The position numbers and the translations under genes were made by a program. A DNA stretch of 64,000 bases from a virus. The stretch covers positions 102,312-166,311 of IMG/VR virus record IMGVR_UViG_3300027969_000044. The stretch is one strand, 5' to 3'. Positions within the stretch are counted from its first letter, which is position 1. Every line of letters starts with the position of its first letter. The notes beneath the pieces are model-generated. The model saw nothing but the letters and a program-made list of their open reading frames with translations. It made no database searches and was not told the origin of the DNA. Below, one piece after another: positions 20,565 through 50,000 of the stretch.

Positions 20565-20993
20565 ATGACTTGGTACCACAAAGGTTCCATAGTTACGGAA
20601 CTGCCTGAAGATTGCGTGGGATTTGTTTATCTTATCTCTTGTAATACTTCTGGCAGGCTCTATATTGGCAAAAAATTAGCAAAGTTTAGTAAAACGACCT
20701 ACAAGACGGTAACGTTGAAGAACGGCACAAAGAAGAAAAAGAAGATCCGAAGCAAAATTGATTCGGACTGGCAAGATTATTATGGCTCAAATATAGAACT
20801 CAACAAAGATGTTGAGCTTCATGGCAAAGACAATTTCACAAGAGAAATATTGCACTACTGTAAAAGCAAAGCAGAAACAAGTTACATTGAGGCCCGCGAA
20901 CAATTCGACCGCAAAGTATTAGAATCAAACGAATACTACAACGGACAAATCTCTGTCCGTGTCCATGGCTCCCATATAAAAAATAAAATTTAG
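20565..20993 (+). CDS. GIY-YIG endonuclease
   Basis: A 142-residue protein with a degenerate GIY-YIG core: GFVYLISCN...GRLYIGKK (residues about 19-37), a basic Lys-run insertion, SDWQDYYGSN, then FTREILHYCKSKAETSYIEA with the family Glu, and a YYNGQ end. This domain composition matches the small free-standing Seg-like nucleases of T4-like phages. No DNA-binding tail of NUMOD type is visible. It starts 3 nt after the preceding gene and is the last gene of the early module. Possible roles are homing or host DNA breakdown. It lies directly against an unusual structured gap, which may be its site or its companion element (inference). Confidence 0.75.
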   Translation: MTWYHKGSIVTELPEDCVGFVYLISCNTSGRLYIGKKLAKFSKTTYKTVTLKNGTKKKKKIRSKIDSDWQDYYGSNIELNKDVELHGKDNFTREILHYCKSKAETSYIEAREQFDRKVLESNEYYNGQISVRVHGSHIKNKI

Positions 20994-21506: not shown

Positions 21507-22349
21507 ATGAAAATCGCAGAATTAATAACAGAATCACAAACAACTGACGAAGGGGTATTAGGCTCTATCGCAAGTGGCGCAGGTAGTGTCGTAGGTGCTG
21601 TAGGCAAAGGCCTAGGTGCTATATCAGGTGCTTGGAAAGGTGCTAAGGATCAATATCAAAAGGGTCAGGCAGCAGGTCGAGCTCACGTAGGTGGATGGAA
21701 ACAGCCAACACCTAAAGATACTTCTGTTCGCGATCAGGAGTTTGCTCGTCTAACAGGTAAAGGCGGTGCCGCAGCCGGAGGCGCTCCAGCAGGTGGTGGA
21801 CAAGATCTTGCAGCTCAAATCAAAGCTAAAGAAGCAGAGTTAGCAGATCTAAAAGCACAACAAAAAGCCGCAGGTGCTCAACAAGCTCCGGCCGCACAAG
21901 AACCAACTCCTCTTGCTCCTCCTCCAAAGACTGAGCCAGGTATTGGTCAAGCAGTTAACTCAAACAATGCCGCAAGTACAAACACAGCACCATCTCCAGT
22001 TAAAGAGCCAGCTGTAAATTCTCTAGCACCTACTGATCCAGTTGGAAATGCTGTTCCGGGTGCTGACAAAGTAGCGCCAGATGCAGCAACACAAGCAAGA
22101 ATTGATGCCGCTCCGCAAGGCTATGACGGCGAGACCGGAAAACCAGTTGCTCCAGCAGGACAACCAAATTTACAAGTACAACAAGGCGGAAAGAATCCGG
22201 CACTTGATGCTCGTAGGGCCGCATTAGAAAAGAGTAAAGCAGATACAGCCGCAGGTAAAGGCGTAACTGGTGCTATGCAAAATATTAAGAAGACAGCAAC
22301 TAATGAAGATGTCGAATTCTACAGCAACTTCTTAGGGCGTATGCTTTAA
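21507..22349 (+). CDS. Candidate internal head protein with capsid-targeting N-terminus
   Basis: A 280-residue Ala/Gly/Pro/Gln-rich, mostly disordered protein. Its start, MKIAELITE followed by Ser, resembles the capsid-targeting propeptide of T4 internal proteins IPI-IPIII (MKTYQEFIAE, then Ala), and the I-T-E/S junction fits the gp21 protease consensus (Ile/Leu-X-Glu before a small residue). A Gly-rich hydrophobic helix pair lies at residues 17-45 (VLGSIASGAGSVVGAVGKGL), and the C-terminus ends EDVEFYSNFLGRML. It is read from a perfect late promoter and is placed next to the head and tail genes. It may be packaged in the head and injected, or act in the prohead core. The final 4 nt overlap the end of the convergent gp51 frame. 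Function is inferred. Confidence 0.6.
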   Translation: MKIAELITESQTTDEGVLGSIASGAGSVVGAVGKGLGAISGAWKGAKDQYQKGQAAGRAHVGGWKQPTPKDTSVRDQEFARLTGKGGAAAGGAPAGGGQDLAAQIKAKEAELADLKAQQKAAGAQQAPAAQEPTPLAPPPKTEPGIGQAVNSNNAASTNTAPSPVKEPAVNSLAPTDPVGNAVPGADKVAPDAATQARIDAAPQGYDGETGKPVAPAGQPNLQVQQGGKNPALDARRAALEKSKADTAAGKGVTGAMQNIKKTATNEDVEFYSNFLGRML

Positions 22350-22582
22350 AAGAACGGCAAGCCTGTATCTTTAGTAGTTTCTAAATTACTTTTTATTAAG
22401 TCAGAAATGGCAATTCGACTGTCCCAGTCCAGTTGCCATGCTTCTTCTATAGTTAATCCGCCTCGCATATACCAACAAAGTTTAAATAATTCTTTACGAA
22501 GTGCGTTTGATTCGTTTTCGAGGCTCTTAACGTACTCTATAATCTCTTCGTCAGTAAATGTTAAGAGCCGTTGCCGAAAAAA
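22346..22582 (-). CDS. gp51: gp51-like frame, reached by -1 frameshift from gp26
   Basis: A minus-strand frame with no usable start codon. From the slip site it reads FFRQRLLTFTDEEIIEYVK, then a helical part, CWYMRGGLTIEEAWQLDW, and ends NLETTKDTGLPFF. The WYMRG...EAW...TKxTGLPFF pattern is that of gp51-type baseplate hub assembly proteins in T4-like phages. No ATG, GTG or TTG occurs before the internal ATG of MRGG, which lacks a ribosome site. The frame is -1 relative to gp26 and overlaps its end, so a gp26-gp51 fusion of 365 residues is expected next to free gp26 (293). The layout resembles lambda G/GT tail chaperones. The gp51 identity rests on the C-terminal motif. Confidence 0.72.
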   Translation of the reverse strand, partial: FFRQRLLTFTDEEIIEYVKSLENESNALRKELFKLCWYMRGGLTIEEAWQLDWDSRIAISDLIKSNLETTKDTGLPFF

Positions 22583-23442
22583 CTTGCGTTGTCAAATCCT
22601 ATAGGAACTAGATAAGTTTCGGGGGCACCTAAATCAATTTGTTCAGGTGTTGACTGTACTGTTAACGGTTGCAGACCGTTATCTGTTTTTAGTTTATCAA
22701 TTTGGGTCTGTATCTTAGTAAACACATCTTTGTCTGCATTTTGGACAAATTCTAAAATAAAATTTGGATCTTCTACAACAGTATCTGGTGTTTTAATAGC
22801 ATATATGCTGTCGGCAATTAACTTAACGGTAACATCTGTCATAACGCTAAAGCTACGGTTAAATGCTGTTAGTTTGTCTTCGTCACTTATCTTATCATCG
22901 TTAACAATTTGCATTACTTTTTGTGCTTCGAACGATTTAAGTCCTGTGTCGGTCAAGTGTTTATAAGTTAGAGGACGAATAAAGCAAGTAATATTTTCAT
23001 TAATAACAACCTCGTCGTTCCATATTGTTCGTTGATAAATGCTATCTAACAGCATTCGAAGGTCGACGCTATGATCAACTGTTTCAGTTGTGTTTGGCAC
23101 CACATGAGTAATTTCCATCATTTCACCGTAGGTTGCCAGACGTATAGCAATTAAAATAGCATCTAAGTCAACGTTTGGAGTTTTCCATGCATCTTTAATA
23201 TTAGGAATACAACTTTGTATAACGTCAACAATACCTTGCCCGTTCATTAAGGCATCGGGAGTTTTAAATGTTAGCTCGTCTTTTGCGGTCATTGAGTAAA
23301 CAGGAATTTCTTTGTTTTCTGAGTAATCAATAGAACCATTCTCCCAAAATGCTCCCTGGCTTGGGAGTCTAATATAAATTTTTGGTTGACGCATATATTG
23401 CATCAACGGATTTTGTTTTGGTGGTTGCTTGAAAGTTGCCAT
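22561..23442 (-). CDS. gp26: Baseplate hub assembly protein gp26 (T4 baseplate family)
   Basis: A 293-residue protein with the T4 gp26 family core: IYIRLPSQGAFWENGSIDY, EIPVYSMTAKDELTFKTPDA, LMNGQGIVDVIQSCIPNI, then DLDAILIAIRLATYGEMMEI. This matches the gp26 pattern (Pfam T4_baseplate). The start is placed at MATFKQPPK because a GGAGAT ribosome site precedes that ATG; an upstream in-frame ATG eight codons earlier has none. T4 gp26 is 208 aa. A TATAAATA late promoter lies 41 nt upstream on the minus strand. The last codons carry the slip site that leads into gp51. It is separated from the main baseplate operon and faces away from the tape-measure gene. Confidence 0.85.
   Translation of the reverse strand: MATFKQPPKQNPLMQYMRQPKIYIRLPSQGAFWENGSIDYSENKEIPVYSMTAKDELTFKTPDALMNGQGIVDVIQSCIPNIKDAWKTPNVDLDAILIAIRLATYGEMMEITHVVPNTTETVDHSVDLRMLLDSIYQRTIWNDEVVINENITCFIRPLTYKHLTDTGLKSFEAQKVMQIVNDDKISDEDKLTAFNRSFSVMTDVTVKLIADSIYAIKTPDTVVEDPNFILEFVQNADKDVFTKIQTQIDKLKTDNGLQPLTVQSTPEQIDLGAPETYLVPIGFDNASFFGNGS
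22576..22582 (-). promoter_or_regulatory. Slippery heptamer T TTT TTC (-1 frameshift)
   Basis: In the gp26 frame the codons AGT TTT TTC contain T TTT TTC, a canonical X XXY YYZ slip sequence, 15 nt before the gp26 stop. Slipping by -1 gives TTT TTT and enters the start-less gp51 frame. No strong stem directly downstream was identified by eye. Confidence 0.65.
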
Positions 23443-23453
23443 TTTTGATCTCC

Positions 23454-23482: not shown

Positions 23483-23490
23483 TATTTATA
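23483..23490 (-). promoter_or_regulatory. Perfect late promoter TATAAATA for gp26/gp51
   Basis: Exact match on the minus strand, 41 nt before the gp26 ATG. With the plus-strand AATAAATA it forms a converging late-promoter pair in the 72-bp gap. Confidence 0.75.
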
Positions 23491-23514: not shown

Positions 23515-26292
23515 ATGACCGGCGCATCCGAAGCAACCTTACAAGAACTCTTAGCTGTTAATAAAGCCACGGCGGCGGCAATTCAACAACTTGCAACAAA
23601 AGGCGGCGCTAGTGGTGGAGCACCTTCAGGAGGCGGAGGAGGCAGTTCCGCGCCAGATCCAAAAGGCCCAGGAATATTCAGTAAAGCTCTAAGCGGTGCT
23701 GGAAGTTTGTTAACCGGAACATTTAGTGCTGCCGCAGGAATTGCCAGTACAGCCTTTACACAGATAGCAAGTACTGGTAAAGCAGTATGGCAAGGTCAAC
23801 AACAATTAGCTCAGACTGCTATTGATGGTAGCGGAAAGTTATCGTCATTTGCTGATGCGATGAGTAACTTGCCTGGTATCTTAGGTCTAGTTGCTAGAGC
23901 CGCATCATTTCAAGCAAAACAATTAGAAGCAAACTTAAATCTTTTTCAACAGGTATCTCAAAGCGGAGCATTGTTTGGCGGAAGTCTCGTTGAAGTTAAA
24001 AAATCTGCACAATCAGTAGGATTAAACTTCAACGAGTTTGCTCAGTTAATGAAAGAGAACGTGGGTACTTTTCATAAGTTAGGAGGCACAGCACAAGACG
24101 GCGCCGACCGTTTGATTAAATTTAATAAAGGGTTTGTCAACGGAGAAGTTGGTCGACAGGTAATGAATTTAGGATTCAGTGCTAAAGAAGCTAATGGACT
24201 CTTAGGTAACTATGCTGAAACAATGGGCGGCATCAGCCAAGCTCAGTTAGATGATCAAAAGGGTATGGAGCAATCTGTAAAATCTTTTGCTAACGAACTT
24301 GCGTTAAGTGCAGCATTAGAAGGTATTAGCAGAGAAGAAAAAGCAAAACAAATGAAAGAGCAGGCCGCTAATGCCGCTCGTGAACTATTGCTGTCTAAAA
24401 TGACAGCAGAAGAAAAGCAACGATACGTTGAAGCGGAAAATCGTGCTGGCCTAATTGGCGGAAAAGCTGCCAAAGATGCGTTGCTATCTGCTACACTTGG
24501 CTTACCGCCAATGACAAAAGAAGCACAAGTGTTTGCCGCTACACAAAGTAAAGCTAACAAAGAAGTTTTAAATCTTGGCGAGATTGCCAAAGACGGAAGC
24601 ATAAGCGAAGCAGAGCGTCAGAAGCGTATGGACCAAACAACTGGTCGCGGCCAAAAGGCCATGGCAGAAAGCGCAGAAAAATACGGCAAGTCAATGAACG
24701 CTATCATTCTGGCAGGTGGTCCATTAGCAGGTAGTATGAGCGCAAGTGCTAAGGCCGCGGCAGAAGCTAATAATAAAGGTCTTAAGACAGAAGAAGATTA
24801 CGCTAATAATATTAAGAAAACTAGAGAACAAATACAAGAAGCAGAGAAGAAAGGCCAAGCAGGCGCCACAGAACAAGCCGCTATGCGAGCTAAGTACCAA
24901 GGCGGACTAATGGACAAACTTAATGCCGCCTTGGCCAAACTATTTCCTATTGTGGTTAAAGTAGTTGAAGTGTTTACAGATATGTTTTTATGGGCAGTAA
25001 ACATGGGAAGTAAAATTTTAGATCAGATATTAATTCCTGGCTTTAAAGAAATATTTGCCGGCGTTAGCATGGACAGTATTATTAAACCTTTTAAAGACTT
25101 CTGGAAAGGGCTTACTGGCGGATTTACTAGCGGAGAAATAGACTTCAAAGCAATTAAAGATACTATAGTTGGGTTCTTTAGACCAATAGTAGTAACCTTT
25201 GGAGAATTAATGAGCTCCATTAACTTTGAGGAAGTTGGGAAAACTGTTAGAACAGCCTTTACAACTATAAAAGATTTTATATCTGGAATTTGGAACTCAT
25301 TAAGTTCCGGTGGCGGCCTTGACAATGCTAAAGATCTATTCAAAGAATATGTTAGCTATATAACGCAATTTGTAGGACTAATATGGAAAGCAATAAGCGC
25401 AATTGATTGGAAAGGTATCGGTGAAAGTCTTGGCGCTGTATTAGGTAAATTGTTTAAAGCCGTTAAAGAAATATTCCAACCTATTATGATTAGAGCAAGT
25501 GAAATTTTTTCTCAAATAGGAAACGATATCGGGCCGGTGATGAGCGATTTAAGTGACATCGTTAAACTTGTATTTCAAAGAATAGGAGATGTAATTGATA
25601 TTTTAATGAAGTACGTCTGGCCAATTGTTAAGCCTATTGTTGATGGCTTGATGAATGCTATGATTCCGTTCTGGAATTATGTTAAAGATATTATCAAAAT
25701 TATTAAAGCAATATTAGCAGGTGATTTTAAATCTCTTCCTGATCTAATTGGTAGTGCTTTTAATAACTTGGTAGAAGGTGTACAAGCATTCTTAAAAGGT
25801 GTTTGGGAAGCGGCCAAGAAGATAGTAAATCCAACTAGTTGGTTTAGCGGAGATACTAAAGCTGAAGCAAAACCAACAAGTGGTCAACAAGCACCGGCTG
25901 TTAACGCGGCCGCGGCGTCAAGTAGTGCAGCAATTGATAAACTTGCTAACGATTGGGCATATAGTGTTTACACCAATAAAGCTACATTGGCACAAGTTCC
26001 AAAAGATGCGTTGGCAAAAGTTCAAGACATTCTTCAAAATCCTCCAAGTAGTTGGAAATCGGACGTTAATAAAACACAGCAACAGAACGCAACTGCTCCA
26101 AAAACAGAAACACAGACTGCCCAAAATACTGCCAAGACTGCTGAGAAGAAGGAAGAAAAAGTTGCCGCAACCCCTGCTGTAGACTTAAATAACAAAGATG
26201 CTTTAGTAGTTCTCAAGACACTAGCAGACTATCAACGTAGAACAATTGATGCTGTTAATAACTTAAATGGCAATATATTGAAAAGGGCTTAA
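23515..26292 (+). CDS. Tail tape-measure protein (gp29-like role, probable)
   Basis: A 925-residue protein. Features: a Gly/Ala/Ser-rich N-terminus; a hydrophobic stretch at residues about 60-95; long helical segments (LSAALEGISREEKAKQMKEQ); several hydrophobic segments in the middle (LFPIVVKVVEVFTDMFLWAV and, near residues 690-745, YVWPIVKPIVDGLMNAMIPF); a Gln/Ala/Lys-rich linker about 780-890; and a helical C-terminus DYQRRTIDAVNNLNGNILKR. Length, helix content and central membrane-active segments fit a tape-measure protein, which sets tail length and leaves the tail at infection. T4 gp29 is 590 aa; I see no direct sequence match to it. Next to gp26/gp51, whose frameshift layout is typical of tape-measure chaperones. 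AGGA ribosome site present. Confidence 0.6.
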   Translation: MTGASEATLQELLAVNKATAAAIQQLATKGGASGGAPSGGGGGSSAPDPKGPGIFSKALSGAGSLLTGTFSAAAGIASTAFTQIASTGKAVWQGQQQLAQTAIDGSGKLSSFADAMSNLPGILGLVARAASFQAKQLEANLNLFQQVSQSGALFGGSLVEVKKSAQSVGLNFNEFAQLMKENVGTFHKLGGTAQDGADRLIKFNKGFVNGEVGRQVMNLGFSAKEANGLLGNYAETMGGISQAQLDDQKGMEQSVKSFANELALSAALEGISREEKAKQMKEQAANAARELLLSKMTAEEKQRYVEAENRAGLIGGKAAKDALLSATLGLPPMTKEAQVFAATQSKANKEVLNLGEIAKDGSISEAERQKRMDQTTGRGQKAMAESAEKYGKSMNAIILAGGPLAGSMSASAKAAAEANNKGLKTEEDYANNIKKTREQIQEAEKKGQAGATEQAAMRAKYQGGLMDKLNAALAKLFPIVVKVVEVFTDMFLWAVNMGSKILDQILIPGFKEIFAGVSMDSIIKPFKDFWKGLTGGFTSGEIDFKAIKDTIVGFFRPIVVTFGELMSSINFEEVGKTVRTAFTTIKDFISGIWNSLSSGGGLDNAKDLFKEYVSYITQFVGLIWKAISAIDWKGIGESLGAVLGKLFKAVKEIFQPIMIRASEIFSQIGNDIGPVMSDLSDIVKLVFQRIGDVIDILMKYVWPIVKPIVDGLMNAMIPFWNYVKDIIKIIKAILAGDFKSLPDLIGSAFNNLVEGVQAFLKGVWEAAKKIVNPTSWFSGDTKAEAKPTSGQQAPAVNAAAASSSAAIDKLANDWAYSVYTNKATLAQVPKDALAKVQDILQNPPSSWKSDVNKTQQQNATAPKTETQTAQNTAKTAEKKEEKVAATPAVDLNNKDALVVLKTLADYQRRTIDAVNNLNGNILKRA

Positions 26293-26298
26293 TAATAT

Positions 26299-28008
26299 AT
26301 GAGTTGGAAAAAATACTTTACTCCGGTTAACACAACTGGACAGCGCGGACCAGTTAGCGGAGCAATGAGTATGGGAACCGGCCCGGGAGCCGCACGATCT
26401 AACTATTCAAGTTATTTGCCCGATGTTTATTCTGGACACCCAAACCGTTTAGAACGATATCAGCAGTATGATACAATGGACAGCGACAGTGAAGTTAATG
26501 CCGCTCTAGATATCTTAGCTGAGTTCTGTACACAATCAAATGACGAAAACGGAACACCGTTTGAAATATTCTTCAAAGATCAAGCTACACAAACTGAAAT
26601 TAAGATCATTAGCAAGTACCTACAACAGTGGGCTCGCTTGAACAAATTTACTAATCGTATCTTTAAAGTTGTTCGCAACACATTCAAGTACGGTGATTGT
26701 TTCTTCATCCGTGATCCAGAAACAAAAGCATGGATGTATGTTGATCCACAGAAAGTAGATCGTATTATTGTTAACGAAAGCGAAGGCAAGAAGCCCGAGC
26801 AATACATTATCCGTGACTTAAATGTTAACTTTCAAAACTTAACTGTAACTACAATTAATCCCGGCGTACCTGGAAACAGTATGGGCGGTGGCACAACCTA
26901 CGGACAATCGAGTAGTGGAATGAACCGCGGTATGACTGGTGCTGTTACTCCTAACTCGGGAAGCAGATTTAACAAACAACAAAACGAATGGGCAATTGAC
27001 GCAGAGCATGTTGTCCATCTAAGTCTAAGTGAAGGCTTAGACAATAACTTCCCATTTGGTAACAGCCTAATGGAAAGTATCTTTAAAGTTTATAAACAAA
27101 AAGAATTGCTAGAAGACAGCATTATTATCTATCGTGTACAGCGAGCTCCAGAACGCAGAGTATTTTACATTGACGTTGGTAATATGCCAAGTCACCTTGC
27201 TATGTCTTTTGTTGAGCGTGTTAAAAACGAAGTCAACCAACGCCGCATTCCTAGTGTTACTGGGGGTGGATCAAGTGTTATTGACAGTTCCTACAACCCG
27301 TTAAGTATTAACGAAGATTACTTTTTCCCACAAACTTCAGAAGGTCGCGGTTCTAAAGTTGAAATCCTACAGGGCGGACAAAACTTAGGAGAAATTGATG
27401 ACCTTAGATATTTTACTAATAAACTTTTTCGTGCTTTGCGTATTCCAAGCTCTTATCTACCTACCGGTAGCGATGATGGCGGAAGCAATTTCAATGATGG
27501 CCGAGTTGGAACAGCGTATATTCAAGAATTGCGATTCAACAAGTACTGCGAACGGTTGCAGTCTTTATTAAATGAAAAATTTGATATAGAATTTAAAGCA
27601 TACATGATGGAAAAAGGTATTAACTTTGATCCTAATTTGTTTGATTTAAAGTTTAATCCACCACAAAACTTTGCCGCTTATCGTCAAGCAGAGATGGATA
27701 CAGCCCGTGTAACCACATTTGGTACTATGGTAGCTATACCACACATCAGCAAGAGATTTGCGCTAAAACGTTTCTTAGGACTAAGCAAAGAAGAGATTGC
27801 AGAGAACGAAACACTATGGCAAGAAGAAAACGGACTGAGCAAAGAAAGTCAAACTGCAGCCGCTGAATTGCGTTCTGCGGGTATTACAGGGTCCGGAGCG
27901 GGCGCCGAAATGGATACATTAGGTGCTGGCGGAGAAGCTCCAGAACTAGACGGAATGGCAGCTGGTGCTGAAGCCGCGCCTGATAACGCACCTGCTCCTC
28001 CGGCATAA
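26299..28008 (+). CDS. gp20: Portal vertex protein gp20
   Basis: A 569-residue portal (T4 gp20 is 524). Recognisable parts: ERYQQYDTMDSDSEVNAALD, ILAEFCTQSNDENGTPFEI, VVRNTFKYGDCFFIRDPETK, HLSLSEGLDNNFPFGNSLME, YRVQRAPERRVFYIDVGNMP, EDYFFPQTSEGRGSKVEIL, and LRYFTNKLFRALRIPSSYLP. These are classical gp20 motifs. It forms the dodecameric ring at the capsid vertex through which DNA is packaged and which starts head assembly. The C-terminal 60 residues are Ala/Gly/Glu-rich. It begins the head operon: portal, core, protease, scaffold, capsid. Confidence 0.95.
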   Translation: MSWKKYFTPVNTTGQRGPVSGAMSMGTGPGAARSNYSSYLPDVYSGHPNRLERYQQYDTMDSDSEVNAALDILAEFCTQSNDENGTPFEIFFKDQATQTEIKIISKYLQQWARLNKFTNRIFKVVRNTFKYGDCFFIRDPETKAWMYVDPQKVDRIIVNESEGKKPEQYIIRDLNVNFQNLTVTTINPGVPGNSMGGGTTYGQSSSGMNRGMTGAVTPNSGSRFNKQQNEWAIDAEHVVHLSLSEGLDNNFPFGNSLMESIFKVYKQKELLEDSIIIYRVQRAPERRVFYIDVGNMPSHLAMSFVERVKNEVNQRRIPSVTGGGSSVIDSSYNPLSINEDYFFPQTSEGRGSKVEILQGGQNLGEIDDLRYFTNKLFRALRIPSSYLPTGSDDGGSNFNDGRVGTAYIQELRFNKYCERLQSLLNEKFDIEFKAYMMEKGINFDPNLFDLKFNPPQNFAAYRQAEMDTARVTTFGTMVAIPHISKRFALKRFLGLSKEEIAENETLWQEENGLSKESQTAAAELRSAGITGSGAGAEMDTLGAGGEAPELDGMAAGAEAAPDNAPAPPA

Positions 28009-36400: not shown

Positions 36401-36523
36401 ATGTCAGAATTTCTGGCAGTCGATCATACTGTGGTAAACCAGCAATGTAATTTGGTTATCCGTGAAACTCGGTGTTTAGGGGACTTTGAATGGCCATTGG
36501 TCGCATATCTGGTCCGTTATTAG
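36401..36523 (+). CDS. Possible 40-aa protein overlapping the fibre gene start
   Basis: The frame starts MSEFLAVDHTVVNQQCNLVI, continues RETRCLGDFEWPL and ends in TAG 34 nt inside the next gene in a different frame. Its ATG has the same 6-nt distance from a late octamer as two other leaderless candidates. The ribosome site of the 36490 gene (AGGGGAC) lies within it, so its translation could control the fibre gene. Two Cys residues are present. Coding status unproven. Confidence 0.4.
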   Translation: MSEFLAVDHTVVNQQCNLVIRETRCLGDFEWPLVAYLVRY

Positions 36524-39500
36524 CGCAGAACTTACTGCGTAATGGCGTTGACCTTGCTTTTGAAACAGACCTGTTATACCTCGATGTAACAAACGGCCGC
36601 ATTGGTATTAAGGAATCAGCCCCTAAAGCAGAGTTAGATGTCAATGGCGATATACTTGCCCACAGAATAAATGTTAACACAGCAACAATTGGGTTAACAA
36701 CGATCACAAGTTCTGAAACAAGTAGTACAATTTCAACACTACTTGGCCCGCTAAATGTTGTAGCTGGCATAAACGATTTAATTAACTTATATTCTAACGT
36801 AGAATTATACGGTAACTTACATGCTACTGGAAATATTACTGCGGACGGTAATATTGTTCTAGGCGATACAACTAGTTCTGATACACTTATTGTTGAAGCT
36901 GAAATTGAATCAGATTTGTTACCTAGTCTAACTTCAGGAACTGGAACAGTAGTAAACACTAGTACAGTTATATCACCGTATAGTATAGGTTCTACATCTG
37001 GATTTTGGTTAAACGGATATTTTGATACTGTAGTCACAAATAAAATTGCCCCAGGCACTGGAACAGACATAACTGTCTTCCCTAATCCTATACAAAACTT
37101 AGACGGATCTGCTAAAAACTTATTCACTATAAATGGCGACATTCGTGTATACGGCGGAAACCCTATTGGTACTGCTCCTGTTGTAAGTAATGTATTATAT
37201 GTTACTATGGACGGAGATGACGATAACGACGGGCGAGCAGAAGACTCAAGTCGTGCTTGCCGTACAGTTAGTGGTGCTGTAAAAAGTCCTTTTTATAAAG
37301 AAGGCACAATTATTAAAGTTCGTAGCGGATACTACTATGAAGATAATCCTATAGCACTTCTGCCATATACTGCTGTAGTAGGAGATGATCTACGCACAAC
37401 ATTCCTTGAGCCGATTAACAACGATACTGATCTATTTTGGGTTAATAGCGGAGTGTACATTGCTCAAATGGCATTCTTAAATCTTCGTAGAGGAAGTGTA
37501 ACACGATATGCTCCTGGCGGAATTGGTGAATACGAAACAGGTGCGTACTGTGTTGCGTTTCCTCCGTCACTAGACAATCCTATAGATGTATATCACAGTC
37601 CGTACATACAGAACTGTACCAACCAATCCGGGCCTTGGATGTACGATGGCACAATGTTTGTCCCTAATCATACTGTTCAAGTGCCTCGTGTTTGGGGCAC
37701 CGGAACATACCAAGCAAACACCACTACAGTAATTTTTCATAAAAATACTGCTTGTGTTGAAATGATCCAGCTTGGAGATACTATTAATGGATCTGGAATA
37801 TTAATGGACCCAGCTGTTCCGAACGCGGTAGTCACACACATTTCTAGACCAGATACGTTATATCTAAGGGCGCAGACCTTACTAGAAAAGAATAAGCCAT
37901 TTATACAAGCAGAAGTTATAGGATACCTAAGTTCTCAATTTCCTAATGTAGTTTATGATGCCAATACTTGTAAGCGGGATGTTGGCCTTGTTGTTGATGC
38001 TATTACATATGATGCTATATTAGGTGGCAACAAAAAATCAGTTACTGCCGGGGTATCATATTATAACGGAAACAGTCTTGTTATCAAAAGCACTGAGACA
38101 ACTGCTACTATTGCAGCCTTCCAATATGTAAACACATTGGCACAAAAAGTGTTAACAAATTCTGCGCCAACAACTTCATATCAAAATAATGTATATCAGT
38201 ATATTGATACAAATTTATATGGGGCTGAAGTAGCAGGGCCGGCCGTTACTGCTCGAGTCAATGACATTGTAGATATTATTCAAAATTGGGCAGGCATAGA
38301 AAATGCCGCGGCATTGATTAGTGCCAACAGATCTTTTATACAAACAGAAGTAATTGCGTTCTTGGATGATCAGTACACTTCATTAAATTATGATAGAGGT
38401 ACCTGCTATAGAGATATTGGATTGATTGTTGATGCTGTTCAATACGACTTGCTACATAAATCAAATGTACAAAGTATTATTGCCGCAGAAAGTTACTGGG
38501 AAGGTGTAACAAGTATTATTGCCGGCGAGCAGTACGAAACTGCCGCAGCCATTCAGTACGCAAGAAATTTAACATCTAATATTGTAAGCAATATTACAGC
38601 TACAACATACCAGTCAACAGTGACTCAAGTTATAACTCCAAGTTTGTCTGGAGGGGTGTTAGCTCTACCTTCGTTACAATCTAACTATAACATGATTGCT
38701 ACCGTAGTTACATCTGGTACAAACTACTTGCCAGTTAGTACAAACTCTACACTAACAGAATTCTTGCTAACTTTAAGTACTGTGACTGTAAATGTTTCCA
38801 CAACTGGATCTGTTTACATTGGTGATACTTATGTTTACCCTGTATTAGAAAAAGATATACCAAATCGTTGGGACGGCGGAAATGCGGCCGAAGGCGATAG
38901 AAGAATTGATCCTCATGGCTCCGGTGGCGGCGCTCTTGTTGATGGTAACGCTCCGTCAACCAGAAGTCCAATACAATCATTTGTGTTTGATGCATTTACT
39001 CAAATAACACAAGGCGGTCACGGAGTACATATTATTAACAACGGCTACGCTCAGTTAGTATCTGTGTTTACAATTTTCAACGACATTGCAGTTCATGTTG
39101 AAAGCGGCGGCATTGCTTCAATTACAAACTCTAACAGTAATTTTGGTGACTTATGTTTAGTAGCTGAAGGATTTGGTAAGAAAGAATTTAACGGCACCAT
39201 TTATAACGCACCGTTTGTTGCGTATGATCCTAACTCAAATACACTATCAGATGATGAAAATTATCCTTTAGGTTACTTCCCAAGATATCAAGAAGTAGCT
39301 GTGTTCATACCTGATTCAAGGAACCGTCCACATATTAGTTTAATAATGGAAGTTGTTCCACCGGACTATATTATTGATTATGAAGATCAAACAGTTCCTT
39401 ACCGCAACGAACAAGGGTTTGAAGGATTCTTGGCAGCAATTTCTAATACTAGTACGCTAGTTCAGGGCAGTCTAACGCTTACAGGAATTGATACAACCGG

Positions 39501-40602
39501 TATTGCTGTTGGTCACACTTTAAATATTCGTAACCAATACGGCGAAACTAGCTATCAAGGAATTGAATATATTTCAAGTGGTACCATAGTAACGCATGTT
39601 GGATATAAAACTGTTACTCTAAATAAACCTATTCAAAAGGGAGACCCTGGAGAAAGATTTAATGAAAATTATTTTAATTTATATTTTTCAGGAAACGCAT
39701 ACTATACAATTCTAAGCAGTATTTTAGGTCCAAGTCCAATACCTCCAGGTCAAAATAAAATTAGAGGTCAAGAAGTAGAAACAGTTGCGGCAATTAATTA
39801 TTTAAAAACTATTGCTAGCAGAGTAGTTTCTAATCTTGCAGTTACAACGACATATCAAACTGCTATTGGACAAACAATTGATCCTGCGTACAGCGGAGGC
39901 TCTGCAGCAGTATCATTTATTAATTCTGAATTAGACATAGTAACAGGAATTATATTACAAGGCCCTAGCGCAACACCAATTGTTAAGACGACCGGAACTT
40001 TTGTAGCAGGGTCAACTGCGGCTATTGCGCTATTAACTAAGAACAGAAAATTCTTAGCCTCAGAAGTATTGGCGTTTACAACAAGTACATATCAAAATTT
40101 CCAGTTTAATAACTTGAAGTGTTACAGAGATGTACAATTGATGGTAGACGCAGTTTGCGAAGATTTATTAACTGGCGGAAACTTTAAAGTATGTGAAGCC
40201 GGTAATACATATTATAGTAAAGATGGAACATATCATATTGTAACTATTGAAGAAGGTGTAACTAACCCGTTACTATTCCCAGATGGTTGTAAAGTTAATT
40301 TCTATCAACGCTCGTACATGAGCGCAAGTGGTTATCTATTTGAGTATGTTGGAGCAGGAACAGACTACGGAGCCCTGCCACAGGTAGGAAGAGTAGATCC
40401 TGTGCAGTCCAAGGAAGTAGTTCAAGTAAATAATGGTAAGGTATTCTTTACATCGACAGACCAAAACGGCGATTATCGTATTGGTCCAGGGTTAGTTATT
40501 AGCCAAGCGACAGGTGTATTGAGTGGAAGAACATTCCAGAAAAGTTTGTTCGCAGAAATGACGCCGTTCATCTTAGCAGTTGAAACAGGCAGCGAAGGAT
40601 AA
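36490..40602 (+). CDS. Large tail-fibre/structural protein, 1370 aa, with short repeat set
   Basis: Begins MAIGRISGPLLAQNLLRNGV, then a DUF1565-like right-handed beta-helix start near residue 236 (YVTMDGDDDNDGRAEDSSRA, IIKVRSGYYYEDNPIALLP). Two copies of a repeat with YDxxxCxRDxGLxVDA follow (Cys codons at 37969 and 38404), a central block GSGGGALVDGNAPSTRSPIQ, a third repeat (Cys codon 40119), and the end module VQVNNGKVFFTSTDQNGDYR followed by GPGLVISQATGVLSGRTFQK. The domain order is the same as in the 3183-aa protein at 41017, its paralogue. The beta-helix suggests a fibre or baseplate-peripheral spike that contacts cell-surface glycan; no catalytic residues are evident. AGGGGAC ribosome site. 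Confidence 0.75.
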   Translation: MAIGRISGPLLAQNLLRNGVDLAFETDLLYLDVTNGRIGIKESAPKAELDVNGDILAHRINVNTATIGLTTITSSETSSTISTLLGPLNVVAGINDLINLYSNVELYGNLHATGNITADGNIVLGDTTSSDTLIVEAEIESDLLPSLTSGTGTVVNTSTVISPYSIGSTSGFWLNGYFDTVVTNKIAPGTGTDITVFPNPIQNLDGSAKNLFTINGDIRVYGGNPIGTAPVVSNVLYVTMDGDDDNDGRAEDSSRACRTVSGAVKSPFYKEGTIIKVRSGYYYEDNPIALLPYTAVVGDDLRTTFLEPINNDTDLFWVNSGVYIAQMAFLNLRRGSVTRYAPGGIGEYETGAYCVAFPPSLDNPIDVYHSPYIQNCTNQSGPWMYDGTMFVPNHTVQVPRVWGTGTYQANTTTVIFHKNTACVEMIQLGDTINGSGILMDPAVPNAVVTHISRPDTLYLRAQTLLEKNKPFIQAEVIGYLSSQFPNVVYDANTCKRDVGLVVDAITYDAILGGNKKSVTAGVSYYNGNSLVIKSTETTATIAAFQYVNTLAQKVLTNSAPTTSYQNNVYQYIDTNLYGAEVAGPAVTARVNDIVDIIQNWAGIENAAALISANRSFIQTEVIAFLDDQYTSLNYDRGTCYRDIGLIVDAVQYDLLHKSNVQSIIAAESYWEGVTSIIAGEQYETAAAIQYARNLTSNIVSNITATTYQSTVTQVITPSLSGGVLALPSLQSNYNMIATVVTSGTNYLPVSTNSTLTEFLLTLSTVTVNVSTTGSVYIGDTYVYPVLEKDIPNRWDGGNAAEGDRRIDPHGSGGGALVDGNAPSTRSPIQSFVFDAFTQITQGGHGVHIINNGYAQLVSVFTIFNDIAVHVESGGIASITNSNSNFGDLCLVAEGFGKKEFNGTIYNAPFVAYDPNSNTLSDDENYPLGYFPRYQEVAVFIPDSRNRPHISLIMEVVPPDYIIDYEDQTVPYRNEQGFEGFLAAISNTSTLVQGSLTLTGIDTTGIAVGHTLNIRNQYGETSYQGIEYISSGTIVTHVGYKTVTLNKPIQKGDPGERFNENYFNLYFSGNAYYTILSSILGPSPIPPGQNKIRGQEVETVAAINYLKTIASRVVSNLAVTTTYQTAIGQTIDPAYSGGSAAVSFINSELDIVTGIILQGPSATPIVKTTGTFVAGSTAAIALLTKNRKFLASEVLAFTTSTYQNFQFNNLKCYRDVQLMVDAVCEDLLTGGNFKVCEAGNTYYSKDGTYHIVTIEEGVTNPLLFPDGCKVNFYQRSYMSASGYLFEYVGAGTDYGALPQVGRVDPVQSKEVVQVNNGKVFFTSTDQNGDYRIGPGLVISQATGVLSGRTFQKSLFAEMTPFILAVETGSEG

Positions 40603-41016: not shown

Positions 41017-44000
41017 ATGCCAAGATTAATTAGTCAACGTAAGCCGGTTAAGCCACCGGAGAAGTTAACAGACGATAGGTGGGACTATCTTGCCTTAACT
41101 CAGGCCCAACCAAATTTAGGACTAGCTCCTACAAACAACGACGGCTATACATTACAGACTGATGAAACTGGTAAACAAACTTTTACTAATACTCTTGGAA
41201 AGTTAGAGTTTGATAATAGTATTATTACCAATACTCAACAAACAGATATTACAATTGAAAATCTCAACAACGGTAATATTATTTTAAGCCCGGACCAAAA
41301 AGTTTGGATCAAGAAAGATTTATTAGTTGAACAAAATACAGAAATTGATGGGCAGATTGTTGTTAAAGGCGACAATCCTCTCGGAACATTTCCAGTAATT
41401 AACTATACATTATATGTAAACGAAAACGGTGATGATGCCAATGACGGCCGCGCCATGGATCCGAGTCGTGCTAAAAGAACAATTAGCGGAGCAGTTCGCA
41501 GTCCTTACTATACAGAAGGAACTGCTATTCGAGTAGCTGCCGGACATTATTGGGAAGATAATCCAATCCCATTAAAGGCAAGTACTTCTGTTATCGGTAA
41601 CGACTTACGAACAACTTTTATTGAACCTCTAAATAAAGAGGACGATTTATTCCACGTTAACTCAGGTGTGTATATTGCTCAACTGGCAATGTTAAATTTA
41701 AAGAAAGGTAGTGTAGAAAGATATGCTCCGGGCGGTGGCGGCAAATACATTACCGGCGCTTACGCAACAGCGTTTCCTCCTAAGTTAGATGATCCTATCC
41801 TTGTTCAGTATTCGCCATACATTCAGAACTGTACTAATCAATCAGGACCATGGTTGTTTGACGGTACTATGTTCTTACCCAATCAAACAGTCCAAGTTCC
41901 ATTGGGGTCGGGTATTTCTAGTTTTGTTGTTGATACAAACACTCTTACTGTAGCAATGGCTACTGGAAGTATTGCTATAGGAATGAGCATCGACGATGAG
42001 CCTAACGTTGGGTACGAAAACGCATATAAATTATTAAAGAAAAACAAACCATTTTTACAATCAGAAATTGTTGCTTGGGTAAGCGCAACATATCCAACAT
42101 TTGTATATGACCGTGATTTATGTTATAGAGATGTAGGATTAATAATCGATGCGGTTGCGGGCGACTCTAGATTTGGCGGAAATTTACGTGCTCGAGAGGC
42201 AGGACTTTCTTACTGGAACGGCAATTATAGTTTAATTCAAAATGAACAAGCACAAACTATTGCAGCTATTGGTCGACTAAAACAGTTAACATCAAAAGTT
42301 ATTACAAATACAATAAACACTGGGTTATCTCAAACTTTAGTTAGTCAAGTAGTTGATCCGTTGCTCCCCGGCGGCAATATTGTTTCTACCCGATTAACTA
42401 CGGCTCTTGATATTATTTCAAATATGATTAGTACAGGGCCTTCTGGTCTTCCTGATCCTATTGAACCAGCTTACGGATTAATTTTTACATCTCAATTAAG
42501 CCCAGATCAAATTACAAGAGCAAGTACAGTAACCAATATTACAAGTACTTCAACTGGCCTTGCTAATGCTCAAACATTATTGCAATTAAACAAACAATTT
42601 ATTCAGAGTGAAATTGTTGCTTGGGTAGATCAAACATATCCAAATTTAAATTACGATAAAGAATTGTGTTTTAGAGATGTTGGGCTAATTGTTGACGCAG
42701 TATCAATTGACGGTATCATCGGTGGCAATATTCAAAGTAGAATAGCAGGTTTAAAATATTATACCGGTAACACGAGTAATATTCCTAACGAAATTCCTCA
42801 AACTGTTGCCGCAGTTGAATATATCAACGAGTTAGCACAGCAAATTATTGATAATCAAACAGTTACGCAATTAACAACATCTACACAAGTTATTCGTCCG
42901 TTACTAGTTGATGGAATTGACGCAAGTGAAGGAATTGCAGCCAGCATTAATATTATAACAAACATTATTGCCAACGGCCAACTAAGCGCACCAGCGCCTG
43001 TTTATCCAAGTTTAGATCAGTATGTTGTAACCTTAGATAAGAAAACAGTTGGTCCAGCAACTAGTTCTACAATTTATTTTGGATACACAACAGTTTACCC
43101 AGTTGAAGAGAAAAACATTCCAGAAGAATGGTTGTCTAAGAGAGCATTAAATCCGAGCGGCTCAGGCGGCGGAGCACTTGTCGACGGTAACGCTCCGAGC
43201 GCAAACAGTCCTATTCAGTCGTTTGTGTTTGATGCGTTTACGCAGTTAAATCAAGGCGGCATTGGTGTACACGTTATTAACAACGGCTATGCCCAGTTAG
43301 TATCTGTGTTTACAATTTTCTGCGACGTTGGTGTTCTAACCGAGAACGGTGGTATCTGTTCTATTACTAACTCTAACGCTAACTTTGGCAACTACTCTCT
43401 TGTATCTAAAGGATACGGTAAGTTAGAGTTCTCGGGAATTATTTGGAACCCTAAATTTCCAACTAACATCCCTAACGGCGAGTACTATCCATTAGGATAC
43501 TGGCCACAAAAAGGAAAGTGCGAAGTATATATTCCTGATCTAGTTAATCGTCCCCACATTGCTTTGATTATGGAAATTGTTCCACCAAAGACTTACATTG
43601 ATTATAACGGTGATCGTGTTCCTTATCTAAATGCTCAAGGGTATCCCGGATATTTAGGCGCAGCCGTTAATACTAGTACTATTACTGCTGGCGCATATTC
43701 TATCGATCACATCGACACCGCTGGCATTTCAGTAGGTCATAAACTTTTTATTAGAGATTTGTCTGGTGACGAGGGCATTGACGGAGTTCCGTATGCGTCA
43801 GAAGGAACAACAGTAGTTGATGTTGGATTCCAAAGTGTAACATTAGACAAACCTCTAAATTTAAATGCCGGAGACACTACTAACGACTTTTATTTTAATT
43901 TGTTCTTCTGTGGCAATGCCTACTATACAATTCTTTCTAGTGAAGTTGATAATACAGTTACTCAGAAGAGTACAGTTAGCTGGGTTAACGAGCAAGAAAA

Positions 44001-47000
44001 CGAAACATCGGCGGCAATTCGTTATGCTCGAGATGTTGTCAATAATGTAGTTTCAAATATTCCAGTATCAGATCCGTATCAAACAAGTGTAACGCAGGCT
44101 ATTGAATTAGAATACAGTGGTGGACAAAATGCTGTCGGAACACTAAGTGATAAATTTAATATCATTGCCGACATGATACAGTTTGGTCAAAACGCGGCTC
44201 CTGCTATTGTTAAGAACAGTCCATTAAGAACTTCAAATAAAGATTTGTTAAATGCGGCAAAATTAATAGACGATAATAAAACATTTATACAAGAAGAAGT
44301 TACTTCGTTTGTAGATGCTGAGTTAGTAGGGTTTACATATAACAAAGAAAAATGTTTCCGCGATACTGGACTAATTGTTGATAGTATTGCTTTTGATATT
44401 TTGTATGGCGGGACAAGCCAATCAACTTTTGCCGGACTACAGTACTGGAATCAAAATGGTTATACAGGAAAAATTCCAAGTGAAATTACAACAACAACTA
44501 ACACAATCTTGTATGTACAAGAGTTAGCCAAAAAAGTTGTTTTAAATGAAACTACTGGCACTAGATATCAAAATACTATTACACAAGTAATACTAACTGC
44601 TTCAAACTCTGCGTCTGTGGTAACCATTGATGAAGAATTTGGTGTAATTTTAAACATACTATCGAGCGGAACCGCCGGAGTTACTGACTTGATTATACCT
44701 AATGGTATTGCTAGTACGGCTACAGACGTAGTTTATGCTTATAATTTATTACAAGCTAACAAACGATACATTCAGAGCGAAGCTATTGCGTATGTCAATC
44801 AAACTTACCCGGCAGAATTTGTTTATAATAAAACTAAATGCGCTAGAGATAGTGGTATTATTGTTGACTCTATTATCCTTGACGTATTGTATCCTAATGA
44901 TTTAAATAGTCAATCAACTTTTGCTGGACTACAATATTGGAATCAAGACGGATATGTTGGCGACATTGCTAACGAACTAACAACAACTACAAATGCTATT
45001 AATTATGTTAGCCAATTAGCACAACAAATTGTACAAAATATTACTACCGGTACTCGTTATCAGTCTACTATTACTCAAATAACTGGATTAGTCGCTACTG
45101 CCAACGAAGCAACTAAGATAGCAACTGACTTTTCAGTTATTACAAATATTTTAACAGGCGGAACTGCGGGCGTTAGCGATTTACTAGTTGCTAATAATAT
45201 TGAACCTAGCACAGATATTAATACTAATCGTGCTTACGCATTGCTACAAGAAAACAAAGATTATATTTCTGCCGAAGCAGTTGCTTGGGTTGAAGCAAAT
45301 AAGACAGCAGGGTTCACTTACGATAAAGCCAAGTGCGGACGTGATACTGGATATATGGTTGATAGTATAGCATTTGATTTGTTACACGGTGGCAATCGAC
45401 AAGCAATTCAATCCGGTGTTTACTACTACGGCTTTTCTAATACGTCAAGTGCTATTCCAAATGAAAGCACACAAACTGTTGCCGCATTTAATTTTATCAA
45501 ATCAATTAGCAGACAAATTGTTCAAAATAATTTAGTAACACCTAAACAAACAGTTGTTCCTCAAGTAACCAATCTACCTCCGAGTACAGACATTCAGGGG
45601 GCAGTGTTTGGTACAAAGATTGATGTTATCACTCGAATTATTACATCTGGGACAAGTGTTGCTAATGAGCCAAGTCCTATTAGTCTAACACGTACTACAA
45701 GCACTAATGCATTGCTAGCCGCAAAAGTATTAGACGCAAATAGAGAATTTATTCAAGCTGAAGTTATTGCTTACTTAGATGAAACATTTAATTTCTCTTA
45801 TGACCCAGTATTGTGCTTCCGCGATGTTGGATATATGATTGACTCTGTAAGTTTTGACTTGTTACATGGCGGAAATAGGCAAGCAGTTCACAGCGGAGTG
45901 TACTACTATGGGTTTGATGCGTCGTCAAGTGCAGTGGAAGGGCAACGAATTGAAACTCAATATGCTTACGACCACATATCTGATTTAACAACAAAGATTT
46001 TAAACGGTGACGCAGTAACAACAGTTTATCAAACTACTATTACACAAGTAATATTACCGGCTGCTTCAGTAAGTGAGATTGTTGCGGCCGAAGAAAAGGT
46101 TAATGTAATTACAGGAATTATAGCAAACGGTCCAGGCGTTGCCGGAGCAAAGACTCCTATTGGCTTAACAGCAAGTTCAAGTACTACTGTACAAAACGCT
46201 TTCAACGCAATTTTAGCAAATAAAGAATTTATTCAAGCCGAAACTATTGCGTATGTTGATAGATCTTTTAGCAACTTCAGTTACGACCAAGTTAAGTGTG
46301 CTAGAGATACTGGAATTATTATTGATAGTTTAGCAACTGATTTGTTGTTCTCCGGATCAAGTCAATCAGCATTCTCTGGATTACAATATTGGAACCAAGG
46401 AGACTACACTGGTAGCATTGCTGGCGAGTTAACAACTACTACTAACGCAATTAATTATGTTAAAGACTTGGCAAGACATGTTATTTTAACATCAACAACT
46501 GGCACACGTTATCAGTCAACTGTTAGCCAAGTAACAAATCTTCCAGCAGGTAATATTGCTGCAGCCGATTTAGTTACTGCTGATTTTGATTTAATTGTTG
46601 ATATTTTAAACAATGGAACTGACGGTGTTACAGATTTAATTGAAGCAAATGGCAATGTAAGCAGTGATATTAATGTTACTCGTGCTTATGCGCTTTTACA
46701 AGCAAATAAAAATTATCTACAACACGAAGCCATTGCCTATGTTGAAGCAACTAAGACTGGCGGGTTTGAATTTGATAGAGAAAAATGTGCTCGAGATCTA
46801 GGATACATTTTAGAAGGCGTATATTACGATGTTGCATTGGGTACAACTTACCACGCAGTCACTAGTGGACAATCATATCAGCGAGGGATAGCAAGTTCTC
46901 AAGCGGTTCTTGATAAAGAATTAACACAAACTGTAGCGGCAATCAACTACGCTAAATCTAAAACAGCATTACTAGTCGGAAGCGATTCAACTGCTCTAAC

Positions 47001-50000
47001 AAGAAGTAATAATTCTTTTGCTAAAACAATTGATATTATTCAGAACGGTGGTACTAATACAATTAGTTTTCCAACGCCAACTGGTGGCAACATAAACAAC
47101 TCATATGCTCGTGATCAACTATTGGCAAACAAAGCATTCTTAAAAGCAGAACTAACTGCTTGGATTAATGTTCAGAAAGCAAACAACATTAGTCCATTTA
47201 CAGCATTGTTTAGTTACGATGTTGCCAAGTGTGAACGCGATGTTGGTGATATTGTCGATGCTCTATGTTACGACATTCTATACGGTGGGAACAGCGCAAC
47301 TAATATTGCCGCTAGAGCATATTTTGTTGGAGCAGTAAGTGTATTACCAAGTGACCAACGTGCGCCAAGCGCCGCCGCAATGGCAAGACTAAGTGCTGTA
47401 GCACAACAAGTTATTCAAGAACAAACTGTAACTAAGTCAGTTGGTAATAGTGCTACACAAGATAAGAGTAACAGTCCTGCTACGTCAACTGAAGCCGCAA
47501 CATTAGCAAGCCTAATGAGTATCATTACTAGTTCTATTACAAATAATAGTTTAGGTGGAATTCCTCAAATTGTTTACCCAGATATTTCTTGGGCAACTCC
47601 GGGAATTAAAACGGCTGCAGCTAATTTAAATGATAATATTGACATTCTTACCAAGCATACTGTTGATTATACACGTATTCAGTTCAGTAGTTTCTTCACG
47701 TACAATCAAGATAACTGCCTACGCGACACAGGGTTAATTATTGATAGTATTGCGTTTGATATGTTATACAATGGAACAAGTCAATCAACTTTTGCCGGAC
47801 TACAATATTGGAATCAATCATCATATACTGGTGCTATTGCTCAAGAGCTATCAACTACTACATCGGCAATTTCTTATGTTAAGTCACAAATTGTTCCTGT
47901 AGTAAGTACAGCAGGCGGAGCAGGATTGGCTACAGATGTTGCTAACAACTTTGATAGACTGTTAGACATTTTAAATAACGGAACTATTGGTGTAACAGAT
48001 TCAATTGTGCCAAATGGCGCAGCCTTAACATCAACAAACGTAGTTTCAGCGTATGACGCAATACAGACAGTTAAGGCCGCGGTAATTGATAATACAATTA
48101 GTTGGATCAATACAAATAATGCCGGCTTCAGTTACGATGAAACATTGTGTCGTAGAGACATTGGATATATTTTAGACAGTATATCTTTTGACTTACTACA
48201 CAGCGGTAACAGACAATCTATTACAAGCGGCGTTTACTATTATGGATTTAATAGTAGCTCGACTGTACTTGTAAACGAAATTCCACAAACAACTGCGGCA
48301 TATAACTTCATTAGAGATATTGTTGGGAAGATTGTTACAGGTACTGTAATTGATAGACCATATCAACCATATGTTAAACAAGTAACTAGTGCTAACACTG
48401 GAACAACAGCTGAAGCAACAACCTTGGTTAACAATATTAAAGTTATTACTGATATTATTAATCAAGGCCCAGACGTTGCCGGAGCAAAAACTCCAATTGC
48501 GCTTTCTGCTAATACAAGTACAGCCGTTAAAAATGCATTTGACTTACTGTTAGCAAATAGAGATTTTATTGTACAAGAAACAATTACCTATGTCAACGGA
48601 GAATTTATTGGCCCAGCATACGATAGAACTAAGTGCCGAAGAGACACTGGGTTAATTATTGATGCTCTAGCACAGGACTTATTGTTTGACGGATCAAGTC
48701 AAAGTAATTTTGCTGCCTTACAATACTGGACACAAAATGGCTACACAGGATCAATTGACGGAGAAATTACAACCACCACAAATGCTATTTCTTACATAAG
48801 TGATTTGGCACAAAAAATAGTGTTAGGTGATACTACAGGATTGAGATTTCCAAGTGGAGTATTACAAAAAACTGACTTGCCTTTTGCTACACAAGCCGAA
48901 GCAAATATAATAGCAGAAAAGTTTGATCTAATTATAGACATCATGACTAACGGGGTAGAAAATGTTACTGATAGAATTATTCCAAACTTGTTAACACCAA
49001 GCAGTGACATTAACATTCAACGTGCTTACGATATTTTAGAAGCTAATAAAGTATTCTTACAAAGTCAAGCAATTGCATTTGTTGAATCTACTAAGTCGTC
49101 AGGGTTCAGCTACGATACTGATCTATGTTATAGAGATGTTGGATATATTACTGATAGCGTAGCCTTTGATTTATTATATACAGGAAACAGGCAATGTATT
49201 CAGAGCGCGGTTTATTATTATTCTTTTGACTCAGACAATTCTGCTATTAATGATGAAATCGCGCAAACAAATGCCGCTTATGAATATATTAAGACTCTAG
49301 CGGCAAGTGTTATCAAGGGAGATTTTATTGAGAAGCCATATCAGTCAGTTGTTAATCAAGTATTGAGCAACACAGTTGGAACAGACGCAGAAATATTACA
49401 AATTTCTAATAATGTTGATTTAATAACTGACATTATAAGCAATGGTCCATCAAATGCTTTGGCAAAAACTCCAATAGGATTAACTCCTAGCACTGACGCT
49501 AATGTAACAGCGGCGGCTACTTTACTAATGGCTAACAAAGATTTTATTACAGCAGAAGTTATCGCTTATATTAATTCTAAGTTTGGCGGCTTCCAATACG
49601 ACAAAGCCAAATGTTTCCGTGATGTCGGATATATGGTTGATAGCGTTAGCTTTGACTTGTTACATGGTGGTAATAGACAAGCAATTCAATCCGGTGTTTA
49701 TTATTATTCTTTTAATGGCGATAGCACAGCAATACCTAATGAGATTCCACAAACTACTGCTGCCTACACATATCTTAAAACATTAGTTAATAATGTATTA
49801 ATTTCTAATCGCATAACATCGGTTTATCAAACAGCAACTACTCAAGTATACAACTTATCGCCTGCAACTGCTAACGAAGTAACAACAGTTGGAGCAAATA
49901 TTGATTTAATAACAAATATTATTTCAACAGGTCCGGCTGCGGCACCTACTAAAGTACCTGTTGGCTTAGTAGCAAGTAATTCTACAAATGTAAATAGAGG

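Follow-up and report, generated by a model that had tools for sequence, protein, structure and literature searches.

A gp26-like gene of an uncultivated, T4-like phage is very probably, judging from its sequence and from that of its relatives, a T4-like PF12322 tail assembly chaperone (TAC) gene that gives rise to a short and a long form by -1 programmed frameshifting. The gene lies in a 64,000-nt stretch of DNA (the window) that corresponds to positions 102312-166311 of a 166,311-nt IMG/VR record. The original prediction had joined gp26 to a downstream "gp51" frame through a -1 slip similar to that of lambda G/GT, and our analysis supports such a junction, with both the candidate slip site and the downstream frame being kept in the relatives of the phage.

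The gp26-like gene and its surroundings

The features of the locus are compiled in Table 1. The gp26 product matched Pfam PF12322 with an E value of 3.8e-10 and a score of 40.3 bits, above the curated cut-off of 24.5, and PHROG 150 with an E value of 7.3e-14. The short form and the extension were modelled separately with AF2. The model of the short form had a pLDDT of 88 and its top named BFVD matches were T4-like baseplate hub assembly proteins; no solved structure was matched, either by sequence or by fold (PDB, E<=0.001). According to the Pfam model, the gene was the only PF12322 member in its own 166-kb contig, which is possibly incomplete, so that a second gene may lie elsewhere. The box upstream of gp26, a putative T4 late promoter element, occurs three times in the window, as compared with eight copies expected by chance.

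Table 1. Features of the gp26 locus (window coordinates)
Feature	Position	Strand	Basis
gp26-like gene (PF12322 T4_baseplate), putative short chaperone form, 293 aa	22561..23442	-	Pfam, PHROG, AF2
Entire frameshifted gene, predicted 365-aa long form	22346..23442	-	gp26 plus -1 frame
-1 frame extension after the slip, 76 aa (RQRLLTF...TGLPFF); stop 22348-22346	22349..22576	-	
Slippery heptamer T_TTT_TTC in gp26 phase (AG/T TTT TTC)	22576..22582	-	T6 run and phase invariant, 49 clusters
Spacer between heptamer and stem, 6 nt	22570..22575	-	5-6 nt in most stem-bearing close-family members
Stem 5' arm GGCTCTTAAC, includes gp26 stop codon (22563-22561)	22560..22569	-	RNA fold, covariation
Stem loop region, 28 nt	22532..22559	-	RNA fold
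Stem 3' arm GTTAAGAGCC	22522..22531	-	RNA fold, covariation
GGAG, likely gp26 ribosome-binding site	23450..23453	-	Sequence
TATAAATA, putative T4-late-promoter-like box, 41-48 nt upstream of gp26	23483..23490	-	
Tape measure protein, 925 aa, head-to-head with gp26	23515..26292	+	Several tape measure PHROGs, best E 1.9e-9
Portal	26299-28008		Downstream of tape measure gene

The gp26-like gene adjoins the gene of the tape measure protein, but the two are on opposite strands. Elsewhere in the window, three very large ORFs were found on the plus strand (36490-40602, 41017-50568 and 52370-60373, encoding 1370, 3183 and 2667 aa, respectively), the first of them being a tail fibre according to PHROGs. 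A 142-aa protein encoded at 20565-20993 (+) matched PHROG 447, named "NAD synthetase" (E 7.7e-36), as well as homing endonuclease families (E 4e-10); the protein is probably homing-endonuclease-like and the PHROG name misleading.

Frameshifting could be real and its product nevertheless be a structural component of the hub and not a chaperone. Some of the T4 genetics did place gp26 in the hub (PMC3004832), but the same review also counts gp26 and gp51 among the hub assembly chaperones and reports that the finished particle lacks gp51. The adjoining tape measure gene and the short/long logic of the locus are, in turn, compatible with TACs, and we regard a structural role as unlikely. As to the "hub assembly" to which the original prediction had assigned the fusion, this is an old T4 label; the architecture of the locus fits TACs, and published work already classes T4-like gp26/gp51 as such.

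The junction between the two frames

The 3' end of gp26 reads ...AAC GCA AGT TTT TTC GGC AAC GGC TCT TAA and thus contains a heptamer of the X_XXY_YYZ type in the zero-frame phase (22582-22576). The heptamer is 12 nt from the gp26 stop codon, or 15 nt when the stop is included, as in the original prediction, which had also placed the joined locus (22346-23442) and the heptamer correctly. The -1 open frame spans positions 22591-22346, runs for 71 codons beyond the gp26 stop and ends in ...TKDTGLPFF. A slip on T_TTT_TTC would couple 289 residues of gp26 to the 76 of the extension, which agrees with the fusion of 365 aa, as against 293 aa for gp26, that had been anticipated. At the level of predicted reading frames, there are therefore a short and a long form with a common N-terminus.

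The loci of relatives were gathered through gp26 homology alone, ignoring the junction. The close family was sampled with ~75 viral contigs plus Atu_ph07, Phosso and Vibrio 2.275.O, the jumbo phages with six genomes (RaK2, 121Q, Munch, BF, SCTP-2 and PAC2), and further loci came from cyanophages and from the KVP40, Aeh1/phiAS5, S13, ACP17 and Desulfovibrio 7757 phages. Clustering of the gp26 relatives at 70% amino acid identity resulted in 49 clusters (locus L052, with a truncated gp26, was left unscored). The identical junction was present in the close family, in all six jumbo phages and in each of the additional groups. The heptamer was TTTTTTC in 46 clusters, TTTTTTT in two and TTTTTTG in one, and both the T6 run and its phase were invariant, from RaK2-, 121Q-, PA5oct- and Atu_ph07-like jumbo phages to cyanophages and the KVP40, Aeh1 and S13 groups.

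The residue that precedes the Phe-Phe pair was of seven kinds (N, D, S, H, A, Y, R), and its codon ended in T in all 49 clusters. Given the codon use of each gene, a T-ending codon followed by TTT as the first Phe codon in every cluster corresponds to a log10 p of about -27.5, a value that is not an exact p-value given the common ancestry of the clusters. Phe-Phe pairs elsewhere in the same genes had many other codon spellings. The heptamer by itself is not rare, with 11 sites in the window as compared with 25 expected; the junction owes its significance to heptamer conservation, to the purifying selection acting on the -1 ORF and to the hairpin behind the slip site, and not to the heptamer count.

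The -1 ORF was open in all relatives with complete sequence and, in the family of the window, ended nearly always 215 or 224 nt beyond the gp26 stop. Its dN/dS was ~0.25 against locus L005 and ~0.14 against L004; only such close pairs were used, since pairwise values over the whole diverse set were near saturation and uninformative (median 0.69). The extension is under purifying selection by this measure, which argues that it is real coding sequence. Its AF2 model was compact and all-helical, with a pLDDT of 89.6. The Pfam search of the extensions revealed no family common to the members, and the BFVD matches to annotated chaperones were non-significant (e.g., the Moogle tape measure chaperone, E 4.8). 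The missing match to a TAC fold is weak evidence, because TAC sequences and folds diverge strongly.

Alternatively, the small frame could be a separate gene, whose translation begins either with termination-reinitiation at the stop codon of gp26 or at an internal ATG (22468). Some relatives do have TAATG at the stop, or an ATG 5 nt beyond it (phi-Grn1, cyanophages), and small ORFs have been annotated at the junction in loci L001, L091 and L191. In the window, however, no ATG, GTG or TTG was found in the -1 frame between the upstream stop and 30 nt beyond the gp26 stop. The first ATG of the frame is that at 22468, which is not preceded by a Shine-Dalgarno-like sequence, so that the absence of a start before an ATG devoid of ribosome site, as originally described, was borne out. 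A candidate start near the junction was likewise absent in 20 other clusters (21/49 with that of the window); where there was one, a Shine-Dalgarno-like sequence was nearly always absent, and none preceded the internal ATG in any of the 29 clusters scored. A protein initiated at 22468 would moreover omit the predicted long helix 11-38, and a separate gene leaves the invariant slip site unexplained. We have thus rejected a separate gene with its own start for the window, where its chance of being right is very small. Some relatives (cyanophages, KVP40 group) do have a start codon at the junction, the slip site being nonetheless retained; in these phages independent initiation may occur in addition to frameshifting.

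A covarying stem-loop downstream of the heptamer

The two arms listed in Table 1 form a perfect 10-bp stem located 6 nt 3' of the heptamer. The stem and its covariation are new here and had been missed in the original prediction. The folding energy was -17.2 kcal/mol, with z scores of -4.07 relative to dinucleotide shuffles and of -5.35 relative to sequences recoding the same peptide synonymously. Over the 49 clusters, the 60 nt that follow the slip had a mean z of -2.1 against synonymous recodings, with 28 of 49 at p<=0.05, whereas a distal control of the same ORF had a mean z of -0.32, with 3 of 48 (Mann-Whitney p 2e-8 between the two regions). Double changes were observed at 6 of the 11 pairs (16 cells vs. 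4.5 in shuffles, 0/500) among 20 relatives, a set picked for shared stem geometry and hence somewhat biased toward structure.

Frameshift cassettes are expected to have a structure 5-9 nt downstream of the slip site, and the stem found at this distance is a putative stimulator, weak or absent in some relatives. The stem had a z of 0.0 in RaK2 and was weak in the S13 and Aeh1 groups. We consider it a supporting, non-universal element, because it differs or folds weakly in such lineages. As regards an upstream Shine-Dalgarno-like stimulator, base counts around the slip revealed no consistent pattern.

The stem also bears on the possibility that RNA polymerase, and not the ribosome, slips on the T6 run, so that the mRNA would carry an altered number of T. 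Polymerase can slip on six consecutive T, and the resulting protein would be similar; six T are, however, short for polymerase slippage. The base that follows the run is conserved (C in 46/49), and a covarying stem follows at 5-6 nt, both of which are expected for ribosomes, making transcriptional slippage highly improbable. As to a sequencing error or gene decay having split a single ORF, the junction does sit in a homopolymer run, but we have rejected this explanation, whose probability is negligible: an error is excluded in practice because independent relatives with 24-89% gp26 identity, isolates as well as contigs from several phage families, share the same run, phase and downstream ORF in an identical layout, and decay is at odds with the selection on the extension.

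Under -1 ribosomal frameshifting, most ribosomes would terminate at 22561 and release the 293-aa short form. A fraction of them would be stalled by the downstream stem-loop with tRNA-Phe on TTT and TTC, slip one base back on T_TTT_TTC and bypass the gp26 stop, appending the 76-aa helical domain to give the 365-aa long form. If the two forms act as lambda gpG and gpGT do, the tape measure protein would be coated by many copies of the short form, and the extra domain of a few long forms would bring in the tail tube protein; both would depart before tail completion. The sequence itself shows the gene and its frames, the kept slip site, the selection on the extension, the covarying stem, the adjoining tape measure gene and the single copy in the contig; the occurrence of the slip, how efficient it is and a function as chaperone are inferred.

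Relation to T4 gp26/gp51 and to other tail assembly chaperones

The locus resembles lambda gpG/gpGT in the -1 slip predicted near the end of the short frame, in the C-terminally extended long form and in the adjoining tape measure gene, which in this phage is on the opposite strand. The lambda heptamer is GGGAAAG and thus differs from that found here. Another parallel is the TAC of phage Adele and of the Vandenendeviridae and Andersonviridae, a myovirus TAC with a poly-T -1 motif kept across genera and a downstream frame that is always open, as here; it belongs to a different family and its motif is GTTTTT (PMC12846349).

T4 shares with this phage the PF12322 N-terminal domain and the presence of short and long forms, but has two genes where this phage has one gene and a predicted -1 slip. 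T4 gp26 and gp51 both belong to PF12322 and cover PHROG 150 up to positions 235 and 280, respectively. The N-terminal domain comprises 293 aa in this phage vs. 208 aa in T4, and gp26 and the tape measure gene are head-to-head in this phage, unlike in T4. Exactly one PF12322 gene was found in 23 of 24 other phage records, a count that relies on a single Pfam model and missed the SCTP-2 copy, which was found by tblastn. With two such genes in T4 and one here, a single slippery gene would therefore correspond to the short and long pair of T4.

The relation to gp51 was clearest for the cyanophage type. The in-frame fusion of this type aligned with T4 gp51 over its full length, junction included (hhalign, probability 97%, E 7e-11), its extension alone matched gp51 with an E value of 1.7e-4, and the -1 ORF of P-SSM5 matched the gp51 PHROG 634, "baseplate hub assembly catalyst" (E 2e-31). 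The extension of the window family had no significant similarity to the cyanophage type (hhalign E 0.025, probability 2%), and the C-terminal domain of this phage is not detectably related to that of T4 gp51. The "gp51" name given in the original prediction thus holds by sequence for cyanophage- and Straboviridae-type relatives and not for the 76-aa domain of this phage, which is linked to gp51 by position and arrangement only.

The same layout of gp26 and a -1 ORF was observed in Ackermannviridae (CBA120 and others) and in some Vibrio and Pseudomonas phages (loci L192 2438-3405, L194, L211, L214, L212, L188 and L096). In these phages gp26 ends in NTT-TT[CT] and not in T-TTT-TTC, with a TAATG overlap in most of them and TAATT in those of the CBA120 type; here the ribosome may undergo a P-site slip or may instead reinitiate, perhaps on AUU. 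In BFVD, uncharacterised 507-553-aa proteins of the giant phages RSF1, RP12, SpecialG and Eowyn matched the gp26 model (E ~1e-7 to 1e-5, TM ~0.5), hinting at distant chaperone relatives in phiKZ-like phages.

It is somewhat more likely than not that a single slippery, stem-stimulated gene was the ancestral source of both tail chaperones throughout the T4-like supergroup, several jumbo lineages among them. Genes 26 and 51 of T4 would then have arisen through a later duplication, and the Ackermannviridae would have departed from the scheme independently by losing the tandem slip site.

The central idea has been published before, and what is gained here is the breadth, the stem and the lineage. 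Vladimirov, Gautam and Davidson (2022, Virology 566:9-15) reportedly identified the TACs of T4-like phages, among them those encoded by two genes, as well as poly-T slip sites. G-T frameshifting has been described as widespread in long-tailed phages "except T4" (Atkins et al. 2016, PMC5009743). A passage of PMC10885494, citing Vladimirov et al. 2022, describes T4-like phages in which a short TAC copy and a fused long one take the place of frameshifting, and another in PMC12846349, citing the same work, mentions poly-T slippery sequences in the TAC-N genes of T4-like phages.

The junction described here would correct the annotation of many jumbo and T4-like phages, in which the extension is now either overlooked or annotated as a short hypothetical gene of its own. 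It likewise favors an interpretation of T4 gp26 and gp51, which have for long been catalogued as hub assembly proteins whose function is not clear, as the short and the long TAC, and it supplies a concrete slip site and a covarying stem with which frameshifting in these phages can be tested.
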